Of a DNA stretch of 64,000 bases, positions 8,211-63,019 are shown in pieces; position 1 is the stretch's first letter; every line of letters begins with the position of its first letter. Both the position numbers and the translations under genes were made by a program. The stretch is from Bacteroidota bacterium (GTDB lineage Bacteria > Bacteroidota > Ignavibacteria > Tepidaquicellales > Tepidaquicellaceae), in assembly GCA_018266895.1 (NCBI GenBank), contig JAFDZQ010000017.1, forward strand, positions 1-64,000, given 5' to 3'. The notes under the pieces are model-generated. The model worked only from the letters and a program-made list of their open reading frames with translations, ran no database searches and was not told the DNA's origin.

Positions 8211-8476
8211 AAAGTTTTATGGCATCAGTAATGATCCGGTAATTTTTCTGACAGGACAGATAATCATTAGAACTTTAAACTTCATAGAATGTGAGTTTAT
8301 TGGCGGAGCCGTGGAGAGAGTATAATTAGAAACATAGATAAATTTAGTCAGAGTATTATATAACTTTTAGAATATCCAACAAACTTTAAATTGTTAGATA
8401 GTAAAATTTTGACTTAATAAGTATTTTTTACCTTTAATTAACCGGTTTGGCGAAAAGCGTCAATGCAGACGTTATA
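8211..8476 (+). repeat. Long direct repeat, copy B, ending in an attC-like right core
   Basis: Second copy of the 7471-7766 repeat. Its right end runs into ACGTTATATGGC (core GTTATATGGC at 8471-8480), immediately before the GNAT gene. The core is the reverse complement, at 9 of 10 positions, of the sequence just after that gene (GACATATAAC, 8972-8981), as expected for the two ends of one cassette. Confidence 0.75.
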
Positions 8477-8971: not shown

Positions 8972-9067
8972 GACATATAACAGCAACTACCCAAAAGTGG
9001 CGGTTCAGTTATCCGCATCAACATTTGTGGTGAAAATCTCCCACCTTCGCCAAGCCGAAACAATACC
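8972..9067 (+). repeat. attC-like site after GNAT gene
   Basis: Left core GACATATAAC (8972-8981), left arm including AAGTGGCGGTTCAG (8995-9008), variable middle with ACATTTGTGGTG, and right arm CCACCTTCGCCAAGCC (9041-9056) leading to ACAATACC. The arms are complementary over GTGGCG / CGCC-type blocks. The right core is weak in this copy. Confidence 0.6.
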
Positions 9068-9114
9068 TGCATGCATTGAACAAAAAATCATAAATTAAAC
9101 TAAACATAAACAAT

Positions 9115-9813: not shown

Positions 9814-9944
9814 GGTATGTAACAGGAGTCATATATCATAGCTTTGAGTGTTATTTGCAAGTTCAGTTCCCGTAGTTTCGTTTATCCCGATAAACAAGAT
9901 AGCAACCAATAAATTGCTGAGTTTCATATCGCCAACCGTTATTT
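9814..9944 (+). repeat. attC-like site after superoxide dismutase gene
   Basis: Left core GGTATGTAAC (9814-9823), a left arm around ATCATAGCTTTGAG, a long AT-rich middle, then right arm TCATATCGCCAACC and right core GTTATTTG (9938-9945). The right core is clear; the arms are less well paired than in the 16.7, 17.3 and 21.5 kb sites. Confidence 0.5.
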
Positions 9945-9988: not shown

Positions 9989-11704
9989 ATGATAGCACTG
10001 AACACTTCAAAAAGAAACTTCCTTCCGCAGAATCTGGATATCAGCCAATGGCAAAACCTGAAACCTTATTACGATAAGTTGGAAAACGAGACAATTAAAA
10101 ATAAAGAAGATCTGAAATCATGGCTTAAACATTGCGATGAATTAGGGGATGCTGTAGGTGAGTACATGACAAGGTTAGGCATTAACACTACAACCAAAAC
10201 AAATGATGAAGATACAGCGAAGGCGTATGAGAAGTTTGTGACTCTCCTTCAACCAGGTATTTTAGCTTATGAAAATAAATTCAAATTAAAATTAACCGAT
10301 AGTCCCTTTTTTGAAGAAATAGATGAGGAGGATTTTTTTCCTGCTTTCAGAAAAATTAAAAGCGACCTTGAGACATACAATGCTGAAAACGATACATTAC
10401 TTGGCGAAGAAGCAATCTTACAAAATAAATATACCCAAATTATTGGGACACAGACCTTTAATTACGAGGGGAAACAACTACCCCTTGATCGTATGAGTGT
10501 GCTTTTGGAAGACAGAGACCGAACTAAGAGAGAACAGATCTTTCAAATAGCATCGGAAGTATTATTACAGGACTCTGAAAAGCTGGATGATTTATTATCA
10601 AAACTAATTGCTATACGGCATAAGATAGCGAAGAATGCCGGCTTTGATAATTATAACTCTTATAAGTTTGCTGATTGGGGAAGGTTTGATTATTCCATAG
10701 AAGAATGCAGGCAGATGTATAGTTCGATTGCAGATATTGTGGTGCCTATGGAGATACAGATAAAGGAAGAACGAAAAAGACTTTTGCAATTAGATGTTTT
10801 GAGACCCTGGGATTCACAAGTTCCGCTTACTGACCGCCCTCCGCTCAAACCTTCTGAAAACACCGAAGAACTACTAAATAAGACCATTCAATGTTTTAAC
10901 CACATTGATGAATATTTTGGTACCGGACTTGCACGAATGAAAGAAACAGGTAATTTTGATTTAGATCCCAGGATAAATAAAATGAAAGGTGCAGCTTACA
11001 CTACTTATCTCCCGGAAACAAAGGTTCCGTTTATTCTTCATAATAATAATAACACAGCCAGTGATTTAAATACCTTAATACATGAAGGAGGACATGCTAT
11101 ACATTCAATGCTTTGTGCTGATATGGAATATTCTTTTTTTAGAGATGTACCATTGGAAATTGCTGAAGTAGCCTCCAAAGCTATGGAGTTAATAAGTATG
11201 GAATTCTGGGGTATCTTTTATCTGAATCCAGAGGATTTGAAGCAGGCTAAAAAAGCAAAGTTGAAAGAAATTATAAAGGTGTTGCCTTTATATTCAATGG
11301 CTGAGACCTTTCAATTATGGATGTATGAAAATCCCACACATTCTACAGAAGAAAGGCATAATAAATGGACAGAATATCATAGACAATACACGGGTGGAAT
11401 AATCGATTATTCGGGTTACGAAAATATTTTTAGTAGCGGCTTTCAGAAAAATATGGCAATATATACTCTTCCATTATATATGGCTGCTTATTGTTTCAGT
11501 GATTTTGGGGCTATTGCTTTGTGGCGTAATTATAAAAAAGACCCCGTGATAGCGCTGGAACAATACAAAACAGCACTAAGCCTTGGTAATACCCGAACTG
11601 TTCCGGAGTTATATAAAGCTGCAGGAATTGAATTTAACTCTTCCCCGGCTTATATAAAGGAACTAATGGATTTTTTGAAACAGCAAATTGCAGAACTGGA
11701 ATAG
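9989..11704 (+). CDS. M3 family oligoendopeptidase
   Basis: 571-residue zinc peptidase of the thimet oligopeptidase / oligoendopeptidase F family, degrading short peptides in the cytoplasm (no signal peptide). The zinc motif is HEGGH (His368, Glu369, His372 in TLIHEGGHAIHSM), with the third ligand expected in VPLEIAEVASKAME, about 25 residues on. Typical C-terminal motifs (YTGGIIDYSGYEN, YMAAYCFSDFGAIALWR) are present. It is complete and is the second-largest cargo gene of the attC-like array. Confidence 0.93.
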   Translation: MIALNTSKRNFLPQNLDISQWQNLKPYYDKLENETIKNKEDLKSWLKHCDELGDAVGEYMTRLGINTTTKTNDEDTAKAYEKFVTLLQPGILAYENKFKLKLTDSPFFEEIDEEDFFPAFRKIKSDLETYNAENDTLLGEEAILQNKYTQIIGTQTFNYEGKQLPLDRMSVLLEDRDRTKREQIFQIASEVLLQDSEKLDDLLSKLIAIRHKIAKNAGFDNYNSYKFADWGRFDYSIEECRQMYSSIADIVVPMEIQIKEERKRLLQLDVLRPWDSQVPLTDRPPLKPSENTEELLNKTIQCFNHIDEYFGTGLARMKETGNFDLDPRINKMKGAAYTTYLPETKVPFILHNNNNTASDLNTLIHEGGHAIHSMLCADMEYSFFRDVPLEIAEVASKAMELISMEFWGIFYLNPEDLKQAKKAKLKEIIKVLPLYSMAETFQLWMYENPTHSTEERHNKWTEYHRQYTGGIIDYSGYENIFSSGFQKNMAIYTLPLYMAAYCFSDFGAIALWRNYKKDPVIALEQYKTALSLGNTRTVPELYKAAGIEFNSSPAYIKELMDFLKQQIAELE

Positions 11705-11869
11705 ATTCGGTTCAAATTCACCCTTTCATTGGTGACAAAATTTCTTTTTAATTTCAAAGAAAGCCATAACCTGGACGCTGGTGGCAGAGTGTTTGTGGCA
11801 TAAAGCCCGACTGTAGCAAGTCAGCAAAACGTTCGCTGTAACTTTTAAAACCTTAATTCTTATATTGTT

Positions 11870-11936
11870 CCCGCTTAGTCTCCCGCATTGCTTTTATTTT
11901 AAATTAACAAAATATCTTGACGCGGGGACTCAGCGG
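11870..11936 (+). repeat. REP-like palindrome 1
   Basis: Left arm CCCGCTTAGTCTCCCGC (11870-11886) and right arm GCGGGGACTCAGCGG (11922-11936) are near-perfect complements separated by an AT-rich loop. The following ...AACTGACATTA is shared with the copies at 12,041-12,078 and 14,944-14,975. Confidence 0.75.
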
Positions 11937-11978
11937 ATATAACTGACATTAACGAAATAGAATGTTAAAATTCTTGTT

Positions 11979-12343
11979 CCCGCTGCCTGCCCTGTGGGAG
12001 TCTTTCGAATAGCATATATTATAAATCAACAAAATATATTGACGAAGGGACTCAGCGGGCGAACTGACATTAGCGAAGTATTATCATAAAAATTATAACT
12101 GAAAAATTTGTGAGACAGAAACTAAATTATATACATAAGAATCCTGTATCAGGGAAATGGAAACTTGTTGAGCACTACCTTGATTATAAATATTCAAGTG
12201 CGGGGTTCTATGATTCAGGGGAAAAGGCTAATTGTAAATTATATAATTATGCTGAGCTGATATCCACTGATTCCCCGCATCAAAATTTTTTGTTGCTTTA
12301 AAAATGTAACAATGCGGGAGACTCCCACAGGGCAGGCAGCGGG
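11979..12343 (+). mobile_element. REP-bounded element with perfect 25-bp inverted ends
   Basis: Positions 11979-12003 (CCCGCTGCCTGCCCTGTGGG plus 5 bases) are the exact reverse complement of 12319-12343. Inside lie a second REP right arm (GGGACTCAGCGGGCGAACTG, about 12047-12066) and the C-terminal piece of a Y1-type transposase. The size (365 bp) and structure fit a decayed REP-associated transposase unit. Confidence 0.7.
12074..12301 (+). pseudogene. C-terminal fragment of REP-associated (Y1/IS200-like) transposase
   Basis: The frame is open from 12074; the recognisable protein runs from about 12,101 (EKFVRQKLNYIHKNPV) to the stop at 12,301. KLNYIHKNPVSGKWKLVEH followed by YLDYKYSSAGFYD is the C-terminal signature of the RAYT / Transposase_17 family, single-strand transposases of the HUH class. 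The catalytic HUH and the bulk of the domain are missing, so it cannot be active. It sits between REP palindromes, as RAYT genes usually do. Confidence 0.75.
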
Positions 12344-12560
12344 GACAGAAACAACACATTTGCGATAAGCTGTTGCTATTTCGCAGCCGTACTTCGCAGA
12401 CCCGCCTGCATTTCAATCCGGACGGGCAGGCAGTTTTGCGGTTAAAGAAAGTGCAGTTCTCCGAATAAGCATTAGTGCTCAGAAACCCCCGAACGCAAAG
12501 CCCGAAAACGTTAGGTGCAAAGTTTTGATCTATCTAATAATAATTAAATTTAAAACTTAA

Positions 12561-14756
<2,196 letters not shown>

Positions 14757-14781
14757 AAGTGGATTGACAAATTAACACTGA

Positions 14782-14890
14782 TGCTAACTGCGGTTTGGCT
14801 TAATGGCGGGTTCAGTTGTAGATTGAACGGTAGTATTCTGATAAACATTTGTGCCTGGTTGACAGTGAAGTACTTCTAAGTCCGCCACTT
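14782..14890 (+). repeat. attC-like site after katG, cut by a REP element
   Basis: Left core ATGCTAAC (14781-14788), left arm TGCGGTTTGGCTTAATGGCG (14789-14808), variable middle, and the first part of the right arm (AGTCCGCCACTT, 14879-14890). The arm then stops and a REP palindrome begins; no right core follows. The core is partly complementary (about 7 of 10) to the core before katG (GTTAGGTGCA). Confidence 0.65.
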
Positions 14891-14893
14891 TGT

Positions 14894-14975
14894 CCCCGCT
14901 GAGTCTCCCGCACTGCATATATTTTAAAATAACGAAGTCTTTTGACGCGGGTACTCAGCGGGCGAACTGACATTA
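14894..14975 (+). repeat. REP-like palindrome 4
   Basis: Left arm CCCGCTGAGTCTCCCGC (14895-14911) pairs with GCGGGTACTCAGCGGG (14947-14962) across an AT-rich loop. The element ends in CGAACTGACATTA like the copies near 12 kb. It directly replaces the right end of the attC-like site on its left and abuts the recombinase fragment on its right. Confidence 0.75.
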
Positions 14976-15244
14976 TTTGTTCGAAGGTCAAGACGAAGGT
15001 GTTTACAGTTCGAGAAGCATACAGGCAATAATAAAAAACTCCAGTATAAAGTCAGGGATCACAAAAAAGAAGCATACATTCTCTGAGACATTCATTTGCT
15101 ACACATTTATTAGAAGGCGGAACAGATATTCTGTCAATAAAGAAACTGCCCGGACATAAAAGTTTGCGGACAACCATGATATACACTCACGTAAGCAACG
15201 AACATATCAACAAAATACAATCGCCGATTGACAAGATCATTTAA
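14974..15244 (+). pseudogene. Tyrosine recombinase C-terminal remnant, frameshifted
   Basis: Frame 1 from 14,974 reads YLFEGQDEGVYSSRSIQ..., then [18 protein letters not shown]. Shifting frame near 15,080 continues as [20 protein letters not shown], then [19 protein letters not shown]..., to TAA at 15,242. Together this is the last 90 residues of a phage/XerD/integron-type recombinase with catalytic His-x-x-Arg (HT..LRH), His (PGHKS) and Tyr (MIYTH) still recognisable. The N-terminal two-thirds is absent and one frameshift separates the halves. It lies inside the attC-like array, between a REP palindrome and a right-end repeat, so it may be a relic of the enzyme that built the array or of an unrelated element. 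Confidence 0.85.
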
Positions 15245-15249
15245 ATTTA

Positions 15250-15334
15250 CGCAACCGCCACTTGCGCAAGCCGCAAACTGCTTTGCATATATATGCAGGT
15301 ATAAGTTTGTTGCGGGTATTTAATCGTTAGCGGC
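15250..15334 (+). repeat. Right-end repeat, second type (GTTTGTTGCGGGTA), with core GTTAGCGGC
   Basis: CCGCAAAC (15272-15279) pairs with GTTTGTTGCGG around the perfect palindrome TGCATATATATGCA. Then come TTGCGGGTATTTAATC and core GTTAGCGGC (15326-15334). The same end occurs at 37,436-37,514 and, more diverged, at 20,255-20,298. The core matches the reverse complement of the left core after the serine hydrolase (GCAGCTAAC, 8 of 9). Confidence 0.65.
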
Positions 15335-15397: not shown

Positions 15398-16693
15398 ATG
15401 AAGAGATTTATCAAATACACAATCGCAACTTTAATTTTGACCATTGGTTGGGCTATCATTGTTTTAAATGGACTTTTAAATGGCTGGTGGCACAACCCAA
15501 TTACAAAAAACAAAGACACAGAATCATTTATTACCGAAGTCAAAGAGACTACTCAAAAAGAATTTGTAGGAAACTTTGCAATGGCAATTATGAAGGATGG
15601 CAAAGTTGATAAAGAGATTTTCATTTCTTACAACAAACCAATTGACAGGAACACAATTTTTCAAGTTTCTTCTCTGTCAAAATTTGTATCAGCAGTAGGG
15701 ATAATGAAATTAACTGAATCAGGAAAAATTAATTTAGATACTCCTGTCAGTCGTTATCTAAAAAGATGGCAATTGCCACCAAGTGAATTTAATAATGAGC
15801 AGGTGACAGTTCGAAGGTTGTTAAGTCACACTGCTGGTTTAACTGATGGACTTGGCTATAGCGGTTTTGAAAACCGAGACTCTGTACAAACTATTGAATC
15901 TTCACTTACTAAGGCAAAAGATGCGGACAAGGGAATTAGCGGAGAAGTACGAGTAGGTGTAGAACCAAATTCCACCTGGAAATACTCAGGCGGAGGTTTT
16001 ACGCTTTTACAATTAATAGTAGAAGAGACAAGCGGACAGTCTTTTAATGAATTTATGACTTCCAATTTGTTCACTCCCTTAAACATGACCAGTAGTACCT
16101 ACATATTAAACGATTCATTAAAAAACAGGCTATGTGAGTTCTACAATTCAGATAAAACAACTGCTCCTCATTATTACTACACTTCATTAGCAGCGACATC
16201 ACTTTACACTTCATTAGCAGATTTAGAAACATTTTTTCAAATTTTTCTTAAAGGAAAAGACGGTGAACAAATTGGCAGGGGACAATTAGTGCCAGAAAGT
16301 TTGAAGTTAATGAGAGAAGGACATTGGGACATGATGGGTGAGAAAATTTATGGTTTAGGATGTATGCTTTACATAGATATTGAAAACAATGAGGATATTT
16401 TTGGTCATGATGGTAAAAGCACACCTCCAATTAATACTGCAATAAGAATTAATCCAGTTACAGGTGACGGAATAATAGTTTTGGAAACAGGTAATCCGGA
16501 TTTGGCTACAAGAATTGCCAGTGATTGGGTGTATTTACATACTGGAAAAGTAGATACTTTGCTTTTTAGTATGCTGTTAGGAAAGACAATAAAAATTGCG
16601 TTAGTCGGAATACTTTTAATTATACTTTTTCTTATTGGAGTAGCAAGATGGCGTAAGAAAAGAAAAACTGCAGCTAACAAGGGTTTGGTGTAA
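15398..16693 (+). CDS. Membrane-anchored serine hydrolase (beta-lactamase class C / PBP4 fold)
   Basis: 431-residue member of the beta-lactamase-related serine hydrolases (PF00144), which include D-aminopeptidases, esterases and penicillin-binding proteins. An N-terminal membrane segment (residues about 8-28) anchors it. The nucleophile motif SxxK is Ser92-Lys95 (SSLSKF), the second motif is KYSGGGF (Tyr near 195) and the third is GHDG near 340. A C-terminal membrane helix (about 393-415) followed by KKRKTAAN gives a second anchor. The last codons overlap the attC-like left core and arm, so the C-terminus partly encodes the site. Confidence 0.88.
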   Translation: MKRFIKYTIATLILTIGWAIIVLNGLLNGWWHNPITKNKDTESFITEVKETTQKEFVGNFAMAIMKDGKVDKEIFISYNKPIDRNTIFQVSSLSKFVSAVGIMKLTESGKINLDTPVSRYLKRWQLPPSEFNNEQVTVRRLLSHTAGLTDGLGYSGFENRDSVQTIESSLTKAKDADKGISGEVRVGVEPNSTWKYSGGGFTLLQLIVEETSGQSFNEFMTSNLFTPLNMTSSTYILNDSLKNRLCEFYNSDKTTAPHYYYTSLAATSLYTSLADLETFFQIFLKGKDGEQIGRGQLVPESLKLMREGHWDMMGEKIYGLGCMLYIDIENNEDIFGHDGKSTPPINTAIRINPVTGDGIIVLETGNPDLATRIASDWVYLHTGKVDTLLFSMLLGKTIKIALVGILLIILFLIGVARWRKKRKTAANKGLV

Positions 16694-16802
16694 TGGGGGA
16701 AGACGCGCTGAATTTGAACATTTGTGCTTCTGTCATCATTCGTGGTTTATTAAACTTTTGTGCTTCTAAACCCCCACTTCGTCAAGCCCCAAACCGTTAT
16801 CG
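16670..16802 (+). repeat. attC-like site after serine hydrolase gene
   Basis: Left core GCAGCTAAC (16670-16678), left arm GGGTTTGGTGTAATGGGGG (16681-16699), middle with two copies of TTTGTGCTTCT, right arm CCCCCACTTCGTCAAGCCCC (16771-16790) plus AAACC, and right core GTTATCG (16796-16802). The arms pair over GGGTTTGG..TGGGGG / CCCCCA..CCAAACC. One of the best-preserved sites. Confidence 0.8.
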
Positions 16803-16844
16803 GTCATTGTAGAACGACATTCATAACATAAAATTATTACAGAA

Positions 16845-17293: not shown

Positions 17294-17426
17294 ACCGCAA
17301 ACAGCACCTACAAGAAATTGGCGGTTCAGGGGTTAAATAAAGCTTTGTGCTTTGTATCAAGTTTTGTGGTGGCAGACAGTTTTGTGCTTCGAAATCGCCA
17401 ACTTCTTGTAGCTGTAACCGTTAGCG
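17294..17426 (+). repeat. attC-like site after VOC gene
   Basis: Left core ACCGCAAAC (17294-17302), left arm GCACCTACAAGAAATTGGCG (17304-17323), right arm CGCCAACTTCTTGTAGCTG (17396-17414), and right core GTTAGCG (17420-17426). The arms pair over about 18 of 20 positions, the most obvious hairpin of the array. The middle repeats TTTTGTG and TTTGTGCTT. Confidence 0.85.
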
Positions 17427-17463
17427 GCAACTCGTGACGACCGGTCAGAAATTAAACACTAAA

Positions 17464-18607: not shown

Positions 18608-18742
18608 GCAGTAAACCATGGTTTTGCATCAGTGCAGATTTAGTACTGAGTTTAACATTTTTACTTTCAATTAACTTTTATAGTAAACTTAAACTTTGTA
18701 CTTTTTATTCAACACCGTATGAAAAGCCAAAAAACCTTGGCG
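18608..18742 (+). repeat. attC-like site after propeller gene (diverged)
   Basis: Left core GCAGTAAAC (18608-18616), left arm CATGGTTTTGCATCAGTGCAG region, AT-rich middle, right arm ending AAAGCCAAAAAACC and right core CTTGGCGGTC (18736-18745). The TCATTGTA after the core is identical to that after the core at 16,796. Confidence 0.55.
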
Positions 18743-18796
18743 GTCATTGTAAAAAGAAATTAATTAACCTTAAACAAAAATAATAAATAGAACTAT

Positions 18797-20235: not shown

Positions 20236-20298
20236 AAAAAAGTATAACGAACCGTGAACACAGGTTTGTAGTGTATTGCGTATAAATAATCGTTATCG
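20236..20298 (+). repeat. Right-end repeat, second type, with core GTTATCG
   Basis: GGTTTGTAGTGTATTGCGTA, then TAAATAATC and core GTTATCGGCAA (20292-20302), followed by ATTTCAAAACGACA. It is a diverged relative of the ends at 15,300 and 37,480. The core is the reverse complement of CTGCCGATAAC after the next gene, 10 of 11 positions. Confidence 0.65.
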
Positions 20299-20370
20299 GC
20301 AATTTCAAAACGACACCGCATAAATGAAAATAAAATTTTACATTGTAACACTTTTTAGATTTTTTCAAAT

Positions 20371-21510
20371 TTGATTTTTGGACAAAATAAATATCAAAAA
20401 GACTTTAACGAATTTTGGAACGACCTAAACTCTAATTATGCATATTTAAAAGAACAAAATATTGATTTGAAAAAAGTAAAAGAAATTTATCAGCCCAAAA
20501 CCGAAAATATTTCTACAAATTCCGAATTTATACAGTTTTTGGAAAGCATTTTAAATGAACTTTACAACGGACACTCTTCTCTAAATACAAATCTGAATTC
20601 CTCAAACAGATTAATTCCGTCTGGACAAGATATTTTTGTTGAAAAAATTAACAACAAATTTATTATTACAGATTTACGAAAAGATTTTGGGGCTGAAAAA
20701 GGCGGACTAAGAGTAAGAATGGAAATTACAAAATTCAACGGAAAACCAATTGAAGAACAACTTAACAAGTTTCTTCCAAAATTTACGCAAAATCATAATT
20801 CAAAAATGTATCAATTTGCATTGGATATGCTTTTTGCAGGAACACATAACACAAAAAGAGAAATTTCTGTTTTAGAAAACGGAACCGGGAAAAAATATTT
20901 TCCTGATGAATTTAAGCATACTCAATCAAATTCTTTACTTAAAAGCAAAATTATCAACAAAAATACTGCTTGCCTAAAAATTAATAACTCACTAGGAAAC
21001 AATCAATTAATTTTAGATTTTGACAAAACACTTGACAATTTTATAAACTATAAAAATCTAGTAATTGACCTTACAGAAACTCCAAGCGGAGGAAATACAA
21101 CAGTTGCAAGAGCAATTATGGGAAGATTTATTGACAAAACTTTGCCGTATCAAAGACACGAATTTGACGAACAATACGAAACGAAAAGAGTATGGACAGA
21201 ATTTGTAACGCCAAGAAAAACTCAGTTTAAAGGAAAAGTTTATATTTTAGTCGGGCATTGGACAGGAAGTATGGGAGAAGGAATTGCAATCGGTTTTGAC
21301 GGAATGAAAAGAGCGAAAATTATCGGAACAAAAATGGCGGGATTGCTTGGAGCAATTTCTAACTTCCAAATGACCGAAACAAAAATTGGTTATCAATTTC
21401 CAACGGAAAGATTATATCAAACAAATGGTAAACCGAGGGAAGATTTTTTGCCGAAAATTTTGACAAAAAATACTGAAGAAACTTATAAAAAAATGTCAGA
21501 AATAAAATGA
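20371..21510 (+). CDS. S41 family peptidase (C-terminal-processing-protease-like), signal peptide frameshifted
   Basis: 379-residue open frame with a PDZ-like turn (GGLRVRMEITKFNGKPIEEQL) and the S41 core: LVIDLTETPSGGNTTVARAI, VYILVGHWTGSMGEGIAIGFDGMKRAKIIG. The nucleophile is the Ser of TGSMGEG. The frame starts at TTG 20,371 with no signal, but the ATG at 20,324 in another frame encodes MKIKFYIVTLFRFF, and adding one T to the six-T run at 20,360-20,365 joins them into a normal signal peptide ending LIFGQ. So the export signal is out of frame by one base (decay, phase variation or sequence error). Confidence 0.8.
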   Translation: MIFGQNKYQKDFNEFWNDLNSNYAYLKEQNIDLKKVKEIYQPKTENISTNSEFIQFLESILNELYNGHSSLNTNLNSSNRLIPSGQDIFVEKINNKFIITDLRKDFGAEKGGLRVRMEITKFNGKPIEEQLNKFLPKFTQNHNSKMYQFALDMLFAGTHNTKREISVLENGTGKKYFPDEFKHTQSNSLLKSKIINKNTACLKINNSLGNNQLILDFDKTLDNFINYKNLVIDLTETPSGGNTTVARAIMGRFIDKTLPYQRHEFDEQYETKRVWTEFVTPRKTQFKGKVYILVGHWTGSMGEGIAIGFDGMKRAKIIGTKMAGLLGAISNFQMTETKIGYQFPTERLYQTNGKPREDFLPKILTKNTEETYKKMSEIK

Positions 21511-21521
21511 AAATAAAGAAA

Positions 21522-21658
21522 CTGCCGATAACTAGGATTTTGCGTCAGGCGGGCTGAAGTGCAAAATTCAAGTTTTGTACTTCTATTGAAATTTGTATAT
21601 TAGCTCAACGTTTCGGCTTCGAAAGCCCGCCCGAACACCAAGCCCCAAACCGTTAGCA
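21522..21658 (+). repeat. attC-like site after S41 peptidase gene
   Basis: Left core CTGCCGATAAC (21522-21532), left arm GGATTTTGCGTCAGGCGGGC (21535-21554), right arm AGCCCGCCCGAACACCAAGC (21624-21643) then CCCAAACC, and right core GTTAGCACC (21652-21660). GGCGGGCT pairs perfectly with AGCCCGCC. The left core is the 10-of-11 reverse complement of the core before the same gene. Confidence 0.82.
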
Positions 21659-21707
21659 CCAATTTTGGGACGACACTGTAACTAAATTACAACAAATAAT
21701 AAATAGA

Positions 21708-22642: not shown

Positions 22643-22784
22643 GGCGCTAATATCGGTTTGGCAATATGGCAGCTGAAGTGCTACTTTGAAACTTGTGTGC
22701 AAGGTTCAACAGTAGTAATTCTATTGAACTTTTATGCTAAAAATCCGCCACATTCATGTTCCCGCTGAGTCTGAACCGTTGTTG
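22643..22784 (+). repeat. attC-like site after alpha/beta hydrolase, with REP fragment inserted
   Basis: Left core GGCGCTAAT (22643-22651), left arm ATCGGTTTGGCAATATGGC then AGCTGAAGTG, right arm beginning TCCGCCACATTC (22744-22755), then TTCCCGCTGAGTCT (22759-22772), which matches the left arm of the REP palindromes near 12 and 14.9 kb, then GAACC and right core GTTGTTG (22778-22784). Confidence 0.7.
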
Positions 22785-22904
22785 TGCCTGTTCGTGGGTT
22801 CCATAAAGTTTGACATATTATATTTCGTGAAAGATTAGCTGCAAACTTTTTGGTCTCCCCGCCTAAGACTTAAAGCTAAAATTATTAACTACAGGGAAAT
22901 TATT

Positions 22905-23660: not shown

Positions 23661-23740
23661 TTGCGACAGGAAGGTTAAACTCACTCTTTGAATTCCGTTC
23701 CAAATACTCCCCTGTCGCAAATCTGCAGAACTAATGTGGC
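23661..23740 (+). repeat. Inverted repeat with perfect 10-bp arms before bla gene
   Basis: TTGCGACAGG (23661-23670) and CCTGTCGCAA (23711-23720) are exact complements, in the position of an attC-like site. The downstream ACTAATGTGGCAATTTTCG would be the right core region; sequence after the beta-lactamase gene (GCCACCAACATTA) is complementary to TAATGT..GGC with a 4-base insertion. No classical GTTRRRY core is present. Confidence 0.5.
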
Positions 23741-23783
23741 AATTTTCGCAAACATACTTCAACATTCAAAACAGACAAAAACT

Positions 23784-24689
23784 ATGACTAAATTATTTCA
23801 TTTAACAGCTTTACTGTATCTTTTTATTTTCTCTCAGGCATCAGCTCAAACAAAAGATTCATTACAGCAAAAAATAGAACAAATCGTTTCGGCAAAGAAT
23901 GCTGTTGTCGGAGTTTCAATTATTGGCAATAGCGGGAAAGACACTATATCAATAAATGGCGACAGAAATTTCCCATTTCAAAGCGTATTTAAGTTTCATA
24001 TAGCATTAGCGGTGCTGTCTCAGATTGACAAAGGAAAATTTACTCTTAATCAAAAAATTATAATTGAGAAAAAAGACCTTTTGCCGGATCTTTACAGTCC
24101 CATCAGAGATAAATATCCTAACGGCGTAACCCTGACAATTTCAAAAATTTTAAAATATACAGTTTCTGAAAGTGACAATGTCGGATGCGACCTTTTATTA
24201 AAGCTGATCGGAGGACCTGAGATAGTTGAAGAATACTTTATAAAAAATAATTTTAATGACATATCAATAAAATTTAATGAAGAAGTGCAGCAGTCAAACT
24301 GGGATAATCAATTTCAAAATTGGACAACACCACAAGCAGCAAACGAAACACTTGCAGGATTTTATTTAAACAATACAAAACTTTTATCACAAAAAAGTCA
24401 TGACTTTATCTGGAAAATAATGAAGGAGACAAGTACAGGAACAAACAGGATAAAAGGACAACTTCCGGAGAATACTGTTGTTGCTCACAAAACAGGCACA
24501 TCAGGTACAAACAAAGAAGGATTGACTGCAGCAGTAAACGATATTGGAATTGTATTTTTGCCAGACGGACAGCATTTTTATATAAGTGTTTTTGTAACAA
24601 ACTCAACTGAAAATGCTGAAACAAATGAAAAAATAATTGCTGACATTTCAAAAGCTGCCTGGGACTATTTTACAGGCACGACAAAATAA
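23784..24689 (+). CDS. Class A beta-lactamase, A2-like
   Basis: Periplasmic serine beta-lactamase. The ATG at 23,784 gives a clean signal peptide (MTKLFHLTALLYLFIFSQASA); the longer upstream frame adds an implausible leader. All active-site elements are seen: SVFK (Ser67-Lys70), SDN (130-132), Glu166 within FNEEVQQ, and KTG (236-238). In the Glu166 loop the usual Asn170 position is Gln, followed by the QFQNWTTP segment; this and the TPQAAN region resemble the PER/VEB/CfxA/CblA branch common in Bacteroidota. The spectrum cannot be read from sequence. One-gene unit in the attC-like array. Confidence 0.92.
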   Translation: MTKLFHLTALLYLFIFSQASAQTKDSLQQKIEQIVSAKNAVVGVSIIGNSGKDTISINGDRNFPFQSVFKFHIALAVLSQIDKGKFTLNQKIIIEKKDLLPDLYSPIRDKYPNGVTLTISKILKYTVSESDNVGCDLLLKLIGGPEIVEEYFIKNNFNDISIKFNEEVQQSNWDNQFQNWTTPQAANETLAGFYLNNTKLLSQKSHDFIWKIMKETSTGTNRIKGQLPENTVVAHKTGTSGTNKEGLTAAVNDIGIVFLPDGQHFYISVFVTNSTENAETNEKIIADISKAAWDYFTGTTK

Positions 24690-37435: not shown

Positions 37436-37514
37436 CACTTTCGCAAATCCGCAAATTACTTATTAATTTCATGAAGGTTTTTGTAAGTTTGTTGCGGGTA
37501 ATTAATCCTTATCC
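37436..37514 (+). repeat. Right-end repeat, second type, with core CTTATCCGG
   Basis: TTTCGCAAATCCGCAAAT, a loop with ATGAAGG, TAAGTTTGTTGCGGGTAATT then AATC and core CTTATCCGG (37508-37516). Shares the GTAAGTTTGTTGCGGGTA block with 15,301-15,318 (TAAGTTTGTTGCGGGTA). The core is the reverse complement, 7 of 9, of CAGGATAAT at the end of the next gene. Confidence 0.65.
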
Positions 37515-37539
37515 GGTATTTTAAAACGGCATCTCGAAA

Positions 37540-38205
37540 ATGAATGACTTCTATAAACAACATAAGTTATTGCAATGGATTGAAGCAATTTTACTTTTGC
37601 TAATAAGCTTATTGCCGGCACTTGTTATCATTGAAATGGCTAACTCCCAACCTTTGTTCTTCATACTTTTTTTGGTTTACGTACCTATTGGACAATTTGC
37701 AGCAGCCCCATTTTTTACACTTGTGGGTATTTACAAATATTATTCGCCAATGTTACTTGGGTATATGGCAAATGACACCCAAATTGATTTACATAGTGGT
37801 GTAAGTTTTGATTACATTTTTGTAATGAGGAAATATAAATCAGGAATTGAGTTCAAATACAGGCTGTTAATTTATCATTTGGAAGGTTTGATATGCTTAA
37901 TTAAGCTAATTGAGAATAAAAACATACCTGATACAGTAAATATTACAGGAACATCATATTTTTTCAACAACAGGACATTGAACAAAATGGGTTTTGAGAT
38001 TAAGAATCCATCATTTATTTATAGAGTAAATCTATTCCTAAATTTTATTGACTTATTTTGGATGTATTCTCTTTCACAAGGTAAGCTTTCAATTCCTAAG
38101 ATATGGAATGCAAAAAAAGCAAGTATATCAGGAGCTAAATTAGTTGAATCTAAAAAGTTAATTGAAGAACTTTATAACAAAATGAAATCAAAAAAGACAG
38201 GATAA
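37540..38205 (+). CDS. Hypothetical membrane protein with two N-terminal helices
   Basis: 221 residues. Two hydrophobic segments (about 12-32 and 38-62) are followed by a soluble, Lys-rich part, with a further hydrophobic stretch near 167-180. I do not recognise a family. The last codons form the left core of a repeat (CAGGATAAT), so the gene fits a cassette that starts at core 37,508. This is the only well-supported cassette to the right of 27 kb. Confidence 0.6.
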   Translation: MNDFYKQHKLLQWIEAILLLLISLLPALVIIEMANSQPLFFILFLVYVPIGQFAAAPFFTLVGIYKYYSPMLLGYMANDTQIDLHSGVSFDYIFVMRKYKSGIEFKYRLLIYHLEGLICLIKLIENKNIPDTVNITGTSYFFNNRTLNKMGFEIKNPSFIYRVNLFLNFIDLFWMYSLSQGKLSIPKIWNAKKASISGAKLVESKKLIEELYNKMKSKKTG

Positions 38206-38240
38206 TACTGATTTTGCGTCATGGGGTTGACACAACCGGA
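38198..38240 (+). repeat. attC-like left half after membrane protein gene
   Basis: Left core CAGGATAAT (38198-38206) and arm CTGATTTTGCGTCATGGGG (38208-38226), closely matching the arm after the S41 gene (GGATTTTGCGTCAGGCGGGC). No right arm follows; the array seems to end here. Confidence 0.6.
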
Positions 38241-62071: not shown

Positions 62072-63019
62072 TTACGCGCGGGGATGAGCTTGTTTATATA
62101 CCTTTTTTAATTTTTCAGGCGTAAGATGAGTATATATCTGAGTTGTAGAAAGACTTTCATGTCCAAGCAAATCCTTTACAGCTCTGATGTCCGCCCCGTT
62201 ATCAAGAAGATGTGTGGCAAATGTATGTCGAAGGACATGCGGTGATTTCTTTTTAATATCTGTTACAATAGAAAGATTTTTTTTGATTAATCTGTTTACC
62301 TGCATTGGATATAATTTTTTCCCTGAATTACTCAGGAAAAAGATATCAGTTTTTTCGGTATTACATATATCCCGTATTCCGATATAATTTAACAATGCGA
62401 GTTCTGCTTTCTTCCCGAACGGAACTATTCTTTCCTTTGATCCTTTTCCTAAAACTTTCAGAGTTCTGTTACTGAAATAAATATTCTGTATTTTTAGGTT
62501 AATCAATTCGGACAATCTTAAACCTGTACTATAAAAAAGTTCAATAATTGCCTTATCTAAAATGCTTATTTCAGAAATATATTTTTCTCCTAAAAGATTT
62601 TCGATTTCCCGTTTGCTTAAAAAAGACGGCAGCCGTTTTAGAGTTTTAGGAAATAAAAGAAATGAAGCATTGTTCTTTGAAATATATTTTTTCTTAATAA
62701 GAAATTTATAAAAGGATTTTAAAACAGAAATTTTTCTCGATACGGATTTTCTGGAATATCTTTTATTTCCTGAATCAGGGTCGGTAAGGTCTGCTATGTA
62801 TGATTTCAGAAAATTTAGTTCTATATTGCTGAAATCTAAAAATATATTTTGAATTTCCGGCAAAGAATTAGATTCTCTGCAAAGCCCGCTCTTAACAATA
62901 TAAACGCCGAACTGAGATAAATCTGTTTTATAAGAGATAAGAGTATGGAAGGAATAATTTCTGCTGACTTTAAGATACTCGATAAATTCACTTAAGTATT
63001 CGTCAAATGTCTTCTGCAT
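62072..63019 (-). CDS. Tyrosine recombinase XerC/XerD-like
   Basis: 315-residue site-specific recombinase. Catalytic residues: Arg in STGLRLSEL, Lys in GKGSKERIVPF, His-x-x-Arg in HVLRHTFATHLL, His in LLGHESL and Tyr in TQIYTHLTPEKL. The N-terminal SAM-like domain is present (DEYLSEFIEYLKVSRNYSFHT). Chromosome dimer resolution at dif is the normal task; XerC and XerD cannot be separated confidently. 12 bases after the tldD-like gene. It is intact, so it is a possible source of recombinase activity for repeats in this window, but this is only speculation. Confidence 0.93.
   Translation of the reverse strand: MQKTFDEYLSEFIEYLKVSRNYSFHTLISYKTDLSQFGVYIVKSGLCRESNSLPEIQNIFLDFSNIELNFLKSYIADLTDPDSGNKRYSRKSVSRKISVLKSFYKFLIKKKYISKNNASFLLFPKTLKRLPSFLSKREIENLLGEKYISEISILDKAIIELFYSTGLRLSELINLKIQNIYFSNRTLKVLGKGSKERIVPFGKKAELALLNYIGIRDICNTEKTDIFFLSNSGKKLYPMQVNRLIKKNLSIVTDIKKKSPHVLRHTFATHLLDNGADIRAVKDLLGHESLSTTQIYTHLTPEKLKKVYKQAHPRA

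Follow-up and report, generated by a model that had tools for sequence, protein, structure and literature searches.

A decayed integron-like cassette array in an Ignavibacteria genome, probably served by a lineage of patchless integrases

Hairpin sites and an integrase remnant at the locus

The window, by which we mean the whole 64,000-nucleotide stretch of DNA analysed here, carries a series of genes on the same strand, among them those for an S41 peptidase, a serine hydrolase, a VOC protein and an alpha/beta hydrolase, set apart by intergenic hairpins of stereotyped length, mostly 130–136 nt and typically ~134 nt (Table 1). These are imperfect hairpins of the integron type, arranged as R''-L''-loop-L'-R' and conserved in structure, and they were located as attC sites by a covariance model, R1, built on a seed of 16 sites, and by a broader model, R2, both trained on sites associated with the patchless integrases described below. 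In the alignment of the 16 seed sites, 86% of the pair cells are standard pairs, and covariation amounts to 0.496, against 0.161 in shuffled alignments and at most 0.09 for slid structures. On 102 sites the corresponding values are 0.525 and 0.155 (shuffled), but since this larger alignment was fitted to the structure, the seed figure is the cleaner of the two. The cores begin with GTTR in 86 and contain AAC in 95 of the 102 sites, whereas the canonical integron motifs GTTRRRY and RYYYAAC occur in only 11 and 5 of them. Because the core is GTTR and not GTTRRRY, a plain motif search reveals nothing: a strict GTTRRRY search of the window gave no excess over shuffles. A search of the window against Rfam returned no family, and in a generic hairpin scan shuffled sequence yielded as many matches. 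Among the three strong sites of the window, the bottom strand of the one at 17295–17427 has a predicted fold well below that of shuffled sequences (z=-3.8); the other two fold little better than shuffles when taken individually (z -0.45 and -1.8), which is compatible with decay without proving it. Genome-wide, confident sites form two clusters, one in the window and one on contig C50. C58 and C119 carry doubtful sites, and positions 9816 and 33944 of the window are perhaps further weak ones. Matches of R1 and R2 in locus L159 proved to be AT-rich repeats and were excluded from the counts.

Table 1. Coordinates of attC sites, cores, attI-like sites and the integrase remnant in the window
Feature	Position	Strand	Remarks
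attC, GNAT cassette (core before gene at 8471), right core lost	8974–9069	+	R1 E=0.05, R2 E=1e-4
Weak attC before katG	12394–12517	+	Core GTTAGGTGC at 12510; R1 E=0.001
attC after katG, right half cut off by REP-like element	14778–14894	+	R'' CTGATGCTAAC at 14778–14788; R1 partial match 14797–14894; repeat D3 at 14901
Patchless integrase remnant, ~90 C-terminal codons, one frameshift, front missing	14974–15243	+	TIGR02249 C-terminal match, 72.5 bits
attI-like site between integrase remnant and first cassette	15246–15334	+	TTACGCAA...TTGCG.(G)TATTTAATnGTTA
attC, serine-hydrolase cassette (core before gene at 15326)	16671–16803	+	R1 105.8 bits; seed site
attC, VOC cassette (core before gene at 16796)	17295–17427	+	R1 94.9 bits; seed site
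Degraded attC, propeller-gene cassette (core before gene at 17420)	18609–18743	+	R1 36.1 bits; non-seed
Right half of attI-like site before S41 cassette	20268–20302	+	Repeat family D6
5' core (R' end) opening S41 peptidase cassette	20292–20302	+	GTTATCGGCAA
R'' core closing S41 cassette	21522–21532	+	CTGCCGATAAC
attC hairpin, S41 cassette	21525–21659	+	R1 85.7 bits, E=1e-18; seed site
Degraded attC, alpha/beta hydrolase cassette (core before gene at 21652)	22644–22785	+	R1 53.9 bits, E=6e-11; non-seed
attI-like site before membrane-protein gene	37440–37518	+	Core CTTATCCGG at 37508; repeat family D6; closing core 38197–38206

The surviving part of the integrase, immediately ahead of the serine-hydrolase cassette, runs from YLFEG to HSLRHSF with no insert, across its frameshift. 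It has full-length counterparts in two relatives from the same taxonomic family, one of 281 aa in genome G013 (91% identity across the 55 aa that survive) and one of 290 aa in G010 (84%). The order of features in G013 is that of the window, namely a katG-type gene, repeats, the integrase, an attI-like site and cassettes, and in G010 the integrase, attI-like site and cassettes follow one another in the same way, the integrase there being followed by a CBASS cassette (SMODS synthetase and Cap15). The attI-like motif, compared by eye, lies 3' of the intact integrase in both genomes. Neither a patchless nor a canonical integrase of full length was found in the source assembly, which is 92% complete. 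The other tyrosine recombinase of the window (62072–63019) was considered as the integrase of the array and dropped, as it is XerC-like. The right half of the attI-like site occurs in three copies, at 15302, 20268 and 37484, and more than one integron platform, or duplication of attI, may thus stand behind the locus.

In the source genome the enzyme is defunct, and REP-like insertions and lost half sites, probably together with a frameshifted gene, are eroding the array. As the recombinase is reduced to a truncated remnant, the array is probably no longer mobile by itself in this genome. The weak or missing core matches at some units had originally been put down to turnover; decay fits them better, several attC sites having been cut by a repeat element or having lost one half. 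The repeat in question, a REP/MITE-like sequence (CCCCGCTGAGTCTCCCGC...GACGCGGGGACTCAGCGG), is found in the window at 11876–12072, 14901–14975, about 12300–12370 and 22755; it lies inside attC sites, also abuts the broken front of the integrase remnant, and is strongly amplified beside the integrase of the relative G013 (locus L044, about 11100–12000). Within the S41 cassette, the likely ATG and signal peptide (20326–20376) are out of frame with the remainder, and the S41 gene may therefore be broken. A class A-type beta-lactamase gene (Pfam Beta-lactamase2; 23688–24689) also lies within the array, its flanks devoid of a clear attC core.

Pairing of cores across cassettes

The original prediction held that the two cores on either side of a gene are reverse complements of each other. 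For the S41 cassette the two cores lie exactly where they had been placed and are complementary at 10 of 11 positions, and our recount likewise agrees for the GNAT (9/10) and serine hydrolase (8/9) genes and for the alpha/beta hydrolase, VOC and membrane-protein genes (7/9 each). The VOC R'' core ends in AAAC at 17302, consistent with the hairpin. The permutation proposed with that prediction, in which the core before gene i is scored against the core after gene j, singles out the six named pairs as the unique best of 720 arrangements (p=0.00138, the same at core lengths 9 and 10, with the first three letters unscored). With ten core pairs the permutation gives p=0.0002, and p=0.006–0.007 once the two least certain are removed. 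A first mechanical scan for anchors was noisy in this AT-rich DNA and was superseded by the covariance model; an unsupervised scan of 36 genes, with no core chosen by hand, gave p=0.0023 (47 of 20001).

A larger test drew on 42 cassettes lying between neighbouring sites of the attC model, four of them in the window and the rest in the second array of the source genome and in relatives, with the first four (anchor) letters unscored so that six variable positions remained. The two cores of one cassette match at a mean of 3.86 of these six positions; the means for the two cores of a single attC site and for unrelated pairs are 2.95 and 2.41 (permutation p=5e-5; within arrays p=2.5e-4; own cassette above same site p=6e-4). 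As a 5' core resembles the closing core of its own cassette more than the other core of its own site, it is the cassette, rather than the site, that is inherited as a unit, in line with the prediction of integron recombination at G|TT. Two cassettes of Winogradskyella ursingii match at 10/10 core positions.

The boundaries of cassettes are visible also in exact duplications. Genome G010 carries four copies of a 233-bp cassette, placed to either side of a phosphoesterase cassette and in every case bounded at G|TT; three of the copies are identical (233/233 bp), which is strong sequence evidence of past cassette movement. The fourth copy (locus L045, 13105–13337) departs from these solely in the final 8 bases ahead of the G|TT cut, 3 of which differ. 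Core pairing and these duplications both delimit the cassette as a gene with its own attC, bounded at G|TT.

Patchless integrases and their attC arrays

In the integrases of this family the additional domain of IntI, the patch or I2 insertion, is absent. From the KG.KDR strand to the HxLRH box there are 59–70 residues in 42 patchless proteins of the source class, 62–73 in short named relatives and 66–74 in Xer proteins, whereas 27 of 27 canonical IntI have 106. In an alignment with IntI4 the resulting gap is flanked by matches, 61 residues of IntI4 facing 18 of the patchless integrase, and the predicted structure has no extra helix at the patch position, its best solved neighbours being XerA and IntI4. 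Six patchless proteins that we tested score too low for the integron-integrase model TIGR02249 and narrowly exceed the threshold of NF040815 (site-specific tyrosine recombinase/integron integrase); patchless proteins also stay under the cut-offs for XerC and XerD. In the tree, canonical IntI form one clade (support 100) and most patchless integrases another (98 rows, support 92), neither nested in the other, with deeper branching left without resolution; a small number of patchless rows, of archaeal and candidate-phylum origin, are placed elsewhere, and one row, L158, is a Xer protein included by mistake. The XerC/D-type paralogues of the same genomes lie apart from the patchless clade, which moreover goes with multiple hairpin sites, where a housekeeping XerC/D orthologue would act at a single dif site.

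We consider it quite likely that the region is a decayed integron-type cassette array served by this patchless lineage. The most serious competitor would be an ordinary orphan array (CALIN), whose canonical, patch-bearing IntI acts in trans or has since been lost, the patchless recombinase being a passenger. It could appeal to the lack of an intact integrase in the window, to the canonical IntI present in 28 of 149 genomes of the source class, and to the view that the patch is necessary for cassette capture (PMC7790495). Across these 149 genomes, attC sites occur in 16 of 39 with a patchless integrase as compared with 11 of 110 without (p=5e-5), a contrast that leans in part towards the patchless type because of how the models were trained; genomes with and without canonical IntI have them in 5 of 28 and 22 of 121 cases (p=0.6). 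Twelve attC-positive genomes have a patchless integrase and no canonical IntI, against one with the reverse, and 10 of the 27 attC-positive genomes have neither integrase in full length at the thresholds used. One single-contig genome (G076) combines 21 sites and a patchless integrase with no canonical IntI at E<=1e-40. Unaffected by the training of the models is orientation: the arrays, in Bacteroidota genomes, begin at the patchless integrase, and in 23 of 80 fetched named loci all 67 of 67 sites point away from it, 62 downstream on the integrase strand and 5 upstream on the opposite strand. Around 20 canonical IntI genes R1 found no sites and R2 one weak site, though models trained on patchless-associated sites would favour such a result. 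Taken with the rest, we regard the orphan-array explanation as unlikely.

The link concerns only part of the patchless clade: for many patchless relatives, those of Alphaproteobacteria and of family f8 in the source class among them, no attC sites were found. Where a locus of the attC-rich clade lacks attC sites, its sequence often stops shortly after the integrase (within 1.5 kb downstream in about a third of 47), a pattern to be anticipated if arrays interrupt assembly. Arrays occur in Flavobacterium, Algoriphagus, Winogradskyella, Algibacter and others, and also on mobilizable plasmids, and their cargo includes CBASS anti-phage genes.

Several further contexts deserve mention. The ten attC-positive (R1) genomes with neither integrase type include G148, G140, G016 and G062, and some of them, such as G148 with 11 sites on one contig, may hold a further integrase type. 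On the mobilizable Flagellimonas marinaquae plasmid NZ_CP092416 (L263, 6903–9816), a patchless integrase annotated as 'integron integrase' adjoins erm(F) as well as a divergent attC pair that flanks a dihydrofolate-reductase-family gene. The patchless family also has a second, IS91-linked context: on the Acinetobacter baylyi plasmid pJAT2044 (L268), a relative with 52% identity over 83% of the query sits between ISVsa3 (IS91 family) and tet(X3), with no clear cassette array.

Two other explanations fare far worse than the orphan array. The hairpins might be intergenic repeats or terminators of the REP or MITE kind, and the genes between them not mobile cassettes at all; a REP-like family is indeed present in the window, even inside some sites, but what is conserved in the hairpins is their structure, not their sequence; they keep one orientation and stand beside a recombinase, the matching of cores spans the gene and not the site, and whole cassettes are duplicated with exact boundaries, so that we hold this account to be very improbable. 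Least credible of all is that the core matches reflect chance or selection bias, since, although a GTTA anchor is easy to find in AT-rich DNA, a free search meets many chance cores and five hand-picked pairs by themselves reach only p=0.04 (first four letters unscored), the model-defined cassettes pair far beyond chance with the anchor letters unscored, and five successive cassettes from a complete plasmid of Rufibacter tibetensis agree at 8–10 of 10 positions, the true pairing being the only best of 120.

Mechanism, known systems and significance

Each cassette consists of one gene and its own attC hairpin and starts with the last bases of that hairpin's right core. In the circular form of the cassette, the core before the gene would join the core after it to give one closed attC site, and it is because they together close this site that the cores would match across the gene. 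A tyrosine recombinase would cut at G|TT and insert cassettes, in folded single-stranded form, at attI or at a further attC; here, the enzyme would be related to IntI and XerA but short and patchless, its gene lying right next to attI. The sequences themselves establish the cassettes, the structured attC sites, the paired cores, the absence of the patch, and how arrays in relatives are placed and oriented with respect to the patchless integrase. That the patchless enzyme recombines these sites, and does so via folded single strands, we infer by analogy with the known integron (PMC7790495).

Neither the closing signature nor the cassette array departs from what textbooks describe for integrons. 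The original reading of the locus as integron cassettes accordingly stands, borne out by structured attC sites, cassette-specific cores, same-strand genes and an integrase remnant with an attI-like site at 15.0–15.3 kb. The likeness to integrons (IntI/attI/attC) extends to same-strand cassettes each with its own imperfect-palindrome attC, G|TT boundaries, a candidate attI-like site beside the integrase gene, arrays that point away from that gene, cassette duplication, and a distribution over chromosomes and plasmids. Unlike in integrons, the integrase has no patch/I2 insertion and forms a clade apart from canonical IntI, the core is GTTR in place of GTTRRRY with attC mostly about 134 nt long, and the integrase is usually transcribed toward the cassettes, not away from them. 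The arrays of the window and of contig C50 are attC sites with no intact integrase and in this respect are CALINs, but in the window the cause is visible as a truncated integrase remnant beside an attI-like site. With XerA, XerC, XerD and the members of NF040815 the patchless integrases share their size and a fold free of the patch, but differ from them in being linked to cassette arrays. As the patch is regarded as a defining and necessary part of IntI (PMC9668308, PMC7790495), we do not count the system as a canonical integron, though to judge from its sequences it would work like one.

The novelty lies in the integrase. A close known system is the integron-like subgroup of simple tyrosine recombinases described by Smyshlyaev 2021 (PMC8138268), where the insertion is termed essential for integron function; the passages of that paper that concern the subgroup do not tie its patchless members to attC arrays. 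In the open-access literature, which was the scope of our search, no publication turned up that connects patchless integrases with attC arrays in Bacteroidota; preprints may already describe such integrons. A survey with IntegronFinder 2.0 recorded one complete integron in Bacteroidetes proper, in Salinibacter ruber, besides those of Chlorobi and Ignavibacteriae (PMC9024848).

On balance we lean towards the broader view that Bacteroidota carry a second widespread integron lineage, whose integrase would capture and shuffle folded attC cassettes despite lacking the patch/I2 helix. Such a lineage may explain why the survey, which relied on patch-bearing IntI profiles and canonical site models, met a single complete integron in Bacteroidetes proper (PMC9024848). 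The patch/I2 has been seen as the step that turned a double-strand recombinase into an integron integrase able to handle single strands (PMC7790495), and a natural patchless clade heading attC arrays makes the claim of its necessity directly testable. If the view holds, recognition and the exchange of one strand only would be achieved by means other than the patch, and the origin of integrons would not have hinged on it.
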